NCBI GenBank assembly: GCA_902806205.1
Contig: CADCVR010000015.1
Span: 1 to 36,195 of the forward strand
Source: an uncultured Solirubrobacteraceae bacterium
Lineage (GTDB): Bacteria > Actinomycetota > Thermoleophilia > Solirubrobacterales > Solirubrobacteraceae
DNA length: 36,195 bases
Direction: 5' to 3'
In this document: positions 3,124-5,686 of the stretch, one piece after another
Numbering within the stretch: position 1 is the first letter of the stretch
How the letters are laid out: each line of letters starts with the position of its first letter
Program-made: the position numbers and the translations under genes
The notes under the pieces: model-generated
What the model saw: only the letters and a program-made list of their open reading frames with translations
Told to the model about the DNA's origin: nothing
Databases searched by the model: none

Positions 3124-3695
3124 AGGCCTTGAATCTACCCCTGCAGCCCCGCGGCTCACCGGCGGCTTATGCGGCGTGCCCGCCATCGTCAAGCTCGCTG
3201 ATCGCCCGGACGAGTCGAGACCGCCGACTCGGCCGCCGCGGTCGTCCGGAAGCTCAACGACGCTGAACACGATGACCCGTCTTGGTGGCAAGAGGCCGAC
3301 GGCAGGGTGAGCAGGCGTTCCGCGGCGGCGACGTCCTGACCGTCGTCGCGCTTAGGCCGCGCGATGTGGCAGGCCCGGCACAGGACTGGGCCGCGCTGCC
3401 TTCCACCACCCACACCTACGCACGCGACGCCTGTGGAGCACCCCGCCAAGAAGGTCACGGGGGAGTGCTACTCGTCCCAAGCGGTAGTCCAGCGAGAGTG
3501 CCGGAATCGTCGACAAGGGTCACTCTCGTCGCGGCGCCCTCGAGCGATGCGCCGTCGGGCGGCGTGACCGCTTCATTGGCCAACGCAGTCGTCTTCCCGG
3601 AAGCAATCGTGTGATCGCCTGGCCGGGGGGACGAGTCGTCCTGGGGGGCGGCGTTGTCGTGACTGTCTTCTTGCCTCGTCGGGCGTGGCCGTTTC
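3124..3695. other. Eroded intergenic stretch
   Basis: No intact gene was found. One plus-strand frame at 3214-3339 reads protein-like (LNDAEHDDPSWWQEADGRVS, ending at TGA 3337-3339) but has no start; a stop lies just upstream at about 3199-3201. It may be the C-terminal scrap of a lost gene. From 3340 to 3695 both strands have open frames of low quality and nothing recognisable. Confidence 0.4.
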
Positions 3696-3910
3696 CCGTA
3701 CGGCGACCCCTTCAGCGAGCTGGACGGACGCGACCGGGTCCGGGGTGGCGGCAACGACCGCATCTTCGCCGCGGCCCGCGGGCCGATCAAGTGCTGACCG
3801 GGTCGCGACGTGGCCCGCGTGGACGCCTGGGATCGGGTGTCCTGGACTGCGAGGTCGCGATCGTCTCGCGCCCCCGGCGCCGCCGCTGGGCAAGTCGGAC
3901 CTGCGCTTAG
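3696..3910 (+). pseudogene. C-terminal remnant of a calcium-repeat (RTX-like) secreted protein
   Basis: In one frame the sequence reads PYGDPFSELDGRDRVRGGGN, then DRIFAAARGPIKC. A TGA at 3795-3797 follows, and the same frame continues as PGRDVARVDAWDRVS. A shift of one base then gives DCEVAIVSRPRRRR, ending at TAG 3908-3910. Together this is the usual end of haemolysin-type calcium-binding repeat proteins of this bacterial group (RVRGGGGNDRI...C-G-x-G-R-D-V...D-R-V...D-C-E). The TGA fits a GGA-to-TGA change (C-G-P-G-R-D), and the shift fits loss of one G. The N-terminal part and signal peptide are absent. Confidence 0.45.
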
Positions 3911-3940
3911 CCGGCCCGGTGGCTCAGTCGCCGGGCCGGC
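3910..3940. terminator. Strong hairpin at the end of the carboxylate-amine ligase gene
   Basis: A perfect 10-bp inverted repeat: GCCGGCCCGG at 3910-3919 and CCGGGCCGGC at 3931-3940, with an 11-base loop. The loop contains the ligase gene's stop codon. There is no T-run, as is common for terminators in GC-rich actinobacteria. It may end the ligase transcript. Confidence 0.45.
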
Positions 3941-5003
3941 GCGTGAGTGCGTGCAGCAGGCCCCCCATGCCGCCTTCTCGGTGGGCCACGTGCTGGAGGC
4001 CGGCTCCGCCTCCCTGGCCGGCCAGCGCGGTCAGGCCCTCGAGCTCCTCCGCGCATCCCAGCGCCCGCGCCATCGGGCGCGCGAGCTCCATCGCCTCGTC
4101 GAGCAGGTCGGCCACCGGCCGCAGCTGCCCGGCCGCGTCGGGCAGCATGGCCGCCACCCCCGCCCGGGCGGCCTTGAACGACGCCTCGTCGAGGATCTCG
4201 GGCGCCGGTCCCGCCACCGGCTCGGCCTGCGCTTCGTGGCGGGCCAGCGATTGCACGGCGGCCACCAGGGCGGCGGTGTGCTCGGGCCGCGCCTGCACGT
4301 CCAGGGCGCGCAGCTCCACGGTGCCCAGCCGCGGGTGGGGGCGCAGCTTCCACCAGTGGAAGGTGTAGTCGGGCACCTCGGCCACGGCGGTGAGCGCCTC
4401 GGTGGACTTCTCGAAGTCTTCGAAGCTGGCGAACGCGCGCGGGGCTCCCGACCGCGCCCACGCGCGAAGGGTGATCTCGCGCGCGGAGGCGAGGCCCGTG
4501 TCGCGGTCGTGGCGAAACGGCGAGTTCGCGCCCAGCGCCTCGAGCAGGGGCAGGTGGCGGCGCAGCCCGTTGAAGACCCGGATGGCCGTCTCGGGGTCCG
4601 GCACGCCCACGTGCACGTGCAAAGCCGAAACCGGCGTGGCCACGGCGTCGCCCAAGAGCGAGCTGATCAGCCGATAGCGCTCCTTGTCGCTGACCTGCGC
4701 CTCACCCTCCTGGGCGTTCGGGTGGGTGCCCGAGCGCAGCAGCCCCACGCCCGCGTCAAGCACGGCACGCTCGAGCTCGCCGAGCTGTCCCATCGCATCG
4801 GCCACCGTCTCGCACACCCCGCTGATCAGCTCGACCTGACAGGCGAGCAACTCTCCTTCGACCTCGCCGGCGTCCGGAGCCTCGAGGCGGTCGAGCACGG
4901 CGTCCGAGTCGTTGAGCAGCGCCCCAGTGGCGGGCGCCACCAGGCACAGCTCCTCCTCAACGCCGAGGGAGAAGGGTTCGCCGGTGCCGAAGGAGTGCTC
5001 CAC
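3924..5003 (-). CDS. YbdK-type carboxylate-amine ligase (GCS2 family)
   Basis: 359 codons from GTG at 5003, with AGGA about eight bases upstream. Family members form a peptide-type bond between a carboxylate, often glutamate, and an amine such as cysteine, using ATP, in the cytosol. The opening FSLGVEEELCLVAPATGALL carries the GVEEE acidic metal/ATP motif. Further motifs are GELLACQVELISGVCET, SGTHPNA, ALHVHVGVPDPETAIRVFNG and HPRLGTVELRALDVQARPEH. Length is close to the family's usual 360-380. The exact substrate cannot be told: only some members make gamma-glutamylcysteine. It is flanked by decayed DNA but is itself intact, and no operon partner is seen. Confidence 0.85.
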   Translation of the reverse strand: MEHSFGTGEPFSLGVEEELCLVAPATGALLNDSDAVLDRLEAPDAGEVEGELLACQVELISGVCETVADAMGQLGELERAVLDAGVGLLRSGTHPNAQEGEAQVSDKERYRLISSLLGDAVATPVSALHVHVGVPDPETAIRVFNGLRRHLPLLEALGANSPFRHDRDTGLASAREITLRAWARSGAPRAFASFEDFEKSTEALTAVAEVPDYTFHWWKLRPHPRLGTVELRALDVQARPEHTAALVAAVQSLARHEAQAEPVAGPAPEILDEASFKAARAGVAAMLPDAAGQLRPVADLLDEAMELARPMARALGCAEELEGLTALAGQGGGAGLQHVAHREGGMGGLLHALTRRPGD

Positions 5004-5013
5004 CCGCGTGATC

Positions 5014-5229
5014 CTAGGCGCACCGGGCCCGCACCGCCCTGTACTCGATCGGCTCGCCGCTCATCGCCCTGCGGTGCACGAAGCGCTCGCAGTGCAGCTC
5101 TTCGAGCCCCCCGTCGCGCACCTCTCCCGCCAGATAGCGCCCGTAGGGTCCACCCGCGGCGTCGCCCAGGTCCTCGGCGCTCGTGGCCTCGAGCCACGTG
5201 CCGGGCGCGAACGCGCTCCAGCCGGCGTC
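5014..5229 (-). pseudogene. Possible C-terminal coding remnant upstream of the ligase gene
   Basis: The frame reads LDAGWSAFAPGTWLEATSAE, then DLGDAAGGPYGRYLAGEVRD, GGLEELHCERFVHRRAMSGE and PIEYRAVRARCA, stopping at 5014, ten bases before the ligase start. This looks translated, but every upstream in-frame start lies inside the palindrome at 5232-5398 or beyond it. The original 5' end may have been displaced by that element. The family is not recognised. Confidence 0.3.
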
Positions 5230-5231
5230 TA

Positions 5232-5398
5232 AGTGCTCCGATTCGTAAGTTCCGTCGCAGGATCCGGGATGGATCGTCGCGCCGTGGCGTTCGGCGACCG
5301 GCCCTGCTCGTACCGGGCGTACTTGCGGGGCCGTCGCCGGGCGGCACGGCCCGGCGAGGCGCCCGGATGCTGCCATGGAACTTCGGAATCGGAGCACT
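5232..5398. repeat. 167-bp imperfect palindrome (fold-back/MITE-like element)
   Basis: The outer 37 bases at 5232-5268 and 5362-5398 are inverted repeats with 32 of 37 identities, both starting AGTGCTCCGATTC. The symmetry continues inward with small register shifts: 5274-5298 pairs with 5333-5357 (20 of 25), 5300-5304 with 5328-5332, and GTAC at 5310-5313 with GTAC at 5319-5322. A 5-base loop (CGGGC) lies at 5314-5318. Almost the whole unit can therefore fold into one long hairpin. It has no coding capacity of its own. No clear target duplication flanks it. A non-autonomous transposable element or a structured RNA are the main options. Confidence 0.75.
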
Positions 5399-5686
5399 AA
5401 GGCCTCGACCGGTATGTGCGACAGCCCCCCGCGCAAAGGGGCAGCCAGGGCGAATTTGTGCTTCCAACCGAAGCGACGCTTTGCCGTCGCCAATTCTGCC
5501 TGGTCTTGTCACGACCTCGCTATTCCGTTGCGGCGACCAAGGGAGTCGACGTTGACCAGCGCCACCCACCGCGTCACAATGGTCCAGCCTCGTTGCACTG
5601 CGCTCCGAGGAAGACAGCCCCGGAGGGCACGCCCGAGGACACCGAGCGATCGGAGTCGCCTGGGCGGGAGCCGGGGCTCTCGCATG
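5399..5686. other. No gene seen
   Basis: About 290 bases of slightly lower GC between the palindrome and the DUF3800-like remnant. No frame with good codon pattern or recognisable motif on either strand. Confidence 0.4.

Follow-up and report, generated by a model that had tools for sequence, protein, structure and literature searches.

The near-palindrome at 5233–5397 of the window (the whole 36,195 nucleotide stretch of DNA from an uncultured Solirubrobacteraceae bacterium that was analysed) is one full-length copy of a non-autonomous, fold-back MITE. It is very likely that this MITE is moved in trans by an IS630-family transposase, and a hairpin folded from one of its strands may aid its propagation.

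The element is 165 bp long, starts with GTGC and ends with GCAC. Its outer arms, with one flanking base included (5232–5268 and 5362–5398), complement each other at 32 of their 37 bases, and the arm symmetry reaches a 5 base loop (CGGGC, 5314–5318) with GTAC on either side, just as the earlier note on this DNA had described it; a repeat search of the window finds a 51 nucleotide inverted pair, flank included. The predicted RNA fold of the palindrome has an energy of -141.6 kcal/mol, versus -88.5 ± 4.6 for shuffles (z = -11.55). The element matches the family covariance model described below with 166 bits, its plus strand is the better-folding one, and its arm mismatches are six G.T and no A.C. 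The terminal inverted repeats, GTGCTCCGATTCGTAAGTTCCG at 5233–5254 (plus strand) and, read inward, GTGCTCCGATTCCGAAGTTCCA at 5376–5397 (minus strand), are common to IS630-type ends, and the stem of the apical stem-loop GTAC-CGGGC-GTAC (5310–5322, plus strand) covaries across the order. The element has no coding capacity, so the earlier reading that it has no gene of its own stands; a coding element was considered and rejected, the element lengths, taken together, not being multiples of three.

The same genome (G000) carries about ten full-length copies (86–99% identical); nine of these, the window copy counted, are intact at 93–100% identity and one is at 86%. One further copy is interrupted by a contig end, and about 20 additional ones are deleted forms or fragments. 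These numbers derive from searches and are lower bounds; several of the genomes are fragmentary bins. The 13 nucleotide end occurs 49 times in this genome with no more than one mismatch, versus three times for the reversed control pattern. Many internally deleted copies retain both ends (the smallest is 42 bp), and the deletion junctions differ among the derivatives compared by eye, so deletion derivatives arise yet seemingly do not multiply. Two family elements (L009 and L011, contig C58:10913–11888) point the same way and are separated by about 650 bp. A search for copies in plasmids and phages found none.

The copies in this genome have the layout CTNA[GTGC...GCAC]TNAG. TNA is identical on both sides in seven of the 11 copies that have both the CTNA and TNAG motifs, N differs in four, and two copies have TCA/TCA flanks. 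Comparison of flanks and an empty allele place the duplicated target (TAA, within C-TNA-G) of the window copy at 5230–5232 and 5398–5400. The empty allele, L219, belongs to genome G043 of another family of the same order; it is 96% identical to window positions 3597–5233 and resumes at 5399–5435, and exactly 168 bp are absent from it, namely the 165 bp element and the three duplicated bases (TAA). It reads GGCGTC-GAA-GGCCTC without the element, and thus has GAA where the window has TAA, a one-base difference. A second empty target is found in a short repeat, which reads CTCCCTAAGCTCAG in L069 and carries elements in L002 and L014. Three or more instances of the short repeat GTTGAGAGACGCTCCCTNAGCTCAG are present in this genome, and elements have inserted twice at the same CTNAG in it (L002, L014, L069). 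Dispersed copies, target duplications and the empty allele bear out the fold-back MITE that the earlier note had put forward; a single-copy palindrome, which it said would favour an RNA, is not what is found, since the element is multicopy and dispersed in its own genome. A TA duplication is what has been described for the IS630 family, and the transposase of its member ISY100 acts by cut-and-paste with duplication of TA (PMC2170065). The commonest flank across the order, CTA/TAG at 140 of 234 ends, is compatible with a TA duplication; in the own genome TNA within CTNAG fits better, which, with the differing N of four copies and the GAA of the empty allele, counts against the IS630-dependent explanation favoured below. 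We note that elements of genome G094 (L189–L217) have CTA or CTC at the left and TAG or GAG at the right, independently of each other, and that the CTC/GAG flanks are unexplained by simple TA duplication.

The element sits in what is left of a methyltransferase-like gene (5014–5232, minus strand), recognised from homologues and the empty allele; the remnant encodes the C-terminal 72 aa of a protein of about 300 aa, and its relatives (42–47% identity) have weak methyltransferase-domain matches. By homology to L219 the same gene fragment continues past the element at 5401–5435 (minus strand), up to a second breakpoint. This homology runs 35 bp beyond the element and stops at about 5435, so most of the gene was removed by the second breakpoint and not by the MITE. 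The cut-off of the 5' part of the remnant, which the earlier note had likened to the effect of an insertion, is thus caused by the element in part only: the remnant is real and the MITE sits inside it, but the 168 bp insert leaves the reading frame open. The neighbouring gene, which lies outside the element (3924–5003, minus strand), belongs to glutamate-cysteine ligase family 2 (GCS2; PF04107, E 2.6e-41). The block that holds the GCS2 gene and the remnant (about 3550–5435) is 95.5% identical to G043, of which 40 kb were compared, and similarity is confined to it, so it is probably, as far as the sequences tell, a small segment exchanged horizontally between families into which the MITE was inserted.

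A DDE_3 profile search of the own genome finds L064, a 1.27 kb IS630-type element with a frameshifted transposase gene, neither fragment of which reaches the curated IS630 cut-off (100 bits). The ends and target of L064, CTAA[GTGG...CCAC]TAAG, have the pattern of the MITE, including its left/right asymmetry (TCGTAAGT versus TCGGAAGT), and its relative L071 has ends GTGCTCCG and GTGCTCTG and the target C-TTA-G. Across the order 18 IS630 ends match element ends at 15–21 of 22 nucleotides, whereas random GTG-anchored 22-mers average about 12 of 22; the ends of L096 match those of G079 elements at 21 of 22 and the ends of L085 those of G153 elements at 20 of 22. These IS630-family ISs of the same order (L064, L071, L076, L085 and L096) share with the MITE their terminal repeats and CTAG or CTNAG targets, but are about 1.1–1.3 kb long, have a transposase gene, and are similar to it only at the ends. 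The matching IS ends that the earlier note had looked to for the name of the helper thus point to the IS630 family, and the element is likely moved by a transposase borrowed from such a larger IS, the identity of which we infer from the shared ends. The own genome yielded no intact helper whose ends are identical, which counts against this assignment. Its sole relative there, L064, has a frameshift and ends that have diverged; the active helper may thus have been lost or be missing from the assembly. The DDE_Tnp_1 and DUF4096 transposases of this genome were rejected as helpers for want of matching ends or of any hit, and an IS5/IS1031-type helper, hinted at by the TNA duplication, was dropped because the ends as well as the CTNAG target are those of IS630-type ISs.

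A covariance model built from copies of G000, G001 and G094 has matches in 18 genera and in 38 of the 232 genomes. Of the 119 elements analysed, nearly all have lengths of 158–166 bp and 55 have exactly 162 bp, and an alignment of 34 elements (A3) is nearly gap-free. This alignment was used for covariation; that of the covariance-model search (A2), in which both strands are mixed, was left out. Both-side, compensatory changes are present in 41 of the 48 stem pairs of the A3 consensus fold, and the covariation score is 0.521, versus 0.198 when shuffled and 0.07–0.12 with slid partners; none of 500 shuffles attains the observed score, with the caveat that palindromes can self-correct. The length, bulge positions and pairing of the MITE interior are conserved over at least 17 genera. 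No Rfam family matches over the window at the gathering score or overlaps the elements of 14 loci at E<=0.1, and no matching family was found in the literature searched.

The arm mismatches are strongly biased toward one strand. On the reference strand there are 860 G.T and 93 A.C mismatches among all elements; when each genus is represented by a single element the counts become 108 and 9, and G.T exceeds A.C in 17 of 17 genera. Element orientation was partly set by the covariance model, which tolerates G.U, and a two-sided test is free of that bias; the orientation-free combined p for the G.T excess is 7e-9, a value that is too small because the elements share ancestry. One misoriented element (L385) was reoriented by its sequence. 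The better-folding strand is the same in 118 of 119 elements, under RNA or DNA parameters. Some wobble sites are lineage-specific, and columns 46/125 alternate between U.G and G.U. As a control, seven Bradyrhizobium hairpins, a small sample, have one G.T and two A.C mismatches and no such bias. From the compensatory pair changes, the one-strand G.T bias and the better folding of the same strand, selection seems to keep a single-strand hairpin of RNA or ssDNA. The covarying pairs and the wobble bias would also fit the hairpin RNA that the earlier note gave as its alternative to a MITE; the two are not exclusive, however, and the folded strand may be ssDNA.

It is possible, though rather unlikely, that the element is a conventional IS630 MITE in which the palindrome serves no function, its covariation having arisen by arm-to-arm template switching and its G.T bias by strand-skewed mutation or ancestry. 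Palindromes do self-correct, but a symmetric correction is unable to produce a ninefold excess of G.T over A.C. The best-folding strand is G-rich (A.G exceeds C.T, and G.G exceeds C.C), and this G-richness contributes to the G.T excess without accounting for it, the skew estimated from G.G/C.C or A.G/C.T being too weak for the G.T/A.C ratio. Young copies, judged by within-genome changes, have a G.T:A.C ratio of 27:12 and are less biased than the genus representatives (108:9), as a palindrome without a role would allow; taken as a comparison of mutation with selection, which is not a clean one, these ratios suggest selection. The insertion of copies in both orientations, the alternation at columns 46/125 and the apparent failure of deletion derivatives with both ends to multiply also speak against a palindrome without a role.

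Order-wide, the usual flanks are CTA-GTG...CAC-TAG. In 79 of 135 CTA-G junctions the TA+G stop is precisely where a reading frame open for 90 codons or more terminates; for other CTAG sites this is so in 28 of 144. The first base of the element is G and its last is C, so that a duplicated TA recreates TAG stops, and does so for both genes where a pair is convergent; such regeneration of stops at CTAG insertions is a neat route to harmless residence in dense genomes. Placement at gene ends, covariation and the G.U bias would all fit a hairpin RNA that benefits the host and is retained wherever it sits (a 3' UTR stabiliser, RNase III site or terminator) with incidental mobility, and ERIC and NEMIS hairpins do act on mRNA (PMC2229807). 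We consider this improbable, since CTAG targeting by itself explains the gene-end location, Rfam has no match to the element, and elements between tandem genes have no orientation preference (24 sense, 31 antisense), which leaves a cis role in mRNA unsupported. As to conservation in place, which the earlier note had named together with covarying pairs as favouring an RNA, a single orthologous site was found: at one CTAG that lies between convergent genes, both of two species carry an element (L316 in G076 and L382 in G193), each element being closest to paralogues in its own genome, and this double occupation could be recurrent insertion or gene conversion.

The family resembles REPINs (RAYT-mobilised REP doublets) in its one-strand hairpin, compensatory changes and length constraint, which recall their constrained spacer (PMC3116915). 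A REP/REPIN-like element, in which a Y1 (RAYT) transposase works on one strand and mobilises a single-stranded hairpin, is nevertheless highly improbable. It is mostly refuted by the absence of Y1_Tnp from the own genome and most carriers, element-rich G079, G015, G094 and G087 included (any Y1_Tnp is present in only about 10 of 38 carriers), on which ground a RAYT helper was rejected, and it is at odds with the target duplication and IS630-type ends.

In the IS630-dependent mechanism that we favour, an IS630-family (Tc1/mariner-type DDE) transposase supplied in trans would recognise the ends GTGCTCCG...AAGTTC, excise the element and paste it into CTNAG, duplicating TNA (TAA here). Efficient propagation would need more than the ends, namely a 162 nucleotide hairpin that one strand forms, be it RNA or ssDNA, a need suggested by the constant length, the compensatory changes and the one-strand G.T bias. 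The hairpin may be an RNA with a part in transposition or an action in trans, or it may be a stage at which ssDNA is folded. More generally, and more tentatively, these may be order-wide mobile hairpins, parasites that use IS630 transposases and for which a one-strand fold, in an element RNA or ssDNA form, is required for spread beyond the ends; this has about as much against it as for it, or slightly more. The literature searched reports no such required fold for IS630 MITEs.

MITEs are usually viewed as two passive ends that enclose mere filler, and YPAL is a known palindromic MITE in the size range of about 100–170 bp. In the present family the filler itself is conserved and one strand alone folds well; if that strand is RNA, MITEs can carry a functional RNA, and if it is ssDNA, the movement of a DDE-type element may pass through a single-stranded, folded step. 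RUP, REPINs, ERIC and NEMIS are the nearest kinds described. RUP of Streptococcus pneumoniae, compared by its description, is a 107 bp MITE attributed to IS630-Spn1, which is likewise short and non-coding, with ends that match an IS630-family IS of the same genome and TA-containing targets (PMC2229807); the present family differs in being 162–165 bp long, palindromic throughout and order-wide, with CTAG/CTNAG targets and a one-strand fold. ERIC and NEMIS/Correia elements are also mobile palindromes of about 100–170 bp that can form hairpins in mRNA (PMC2229807). They and YPAL have other hosts and other ends, whereas the present family is unbiased in orientation to genes and is known from sequence alone. 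The 18 nucleotide end motif is also found in about 80 loci (L100–L187) of the Bradyrhizobium MAG clean1649 and of a small number of further genomes, there in a different element of about 161 bp, which consists of two hairpins and a short spacer, has CTA/TAG flanks, and has an interior unrelated to the MITE family.
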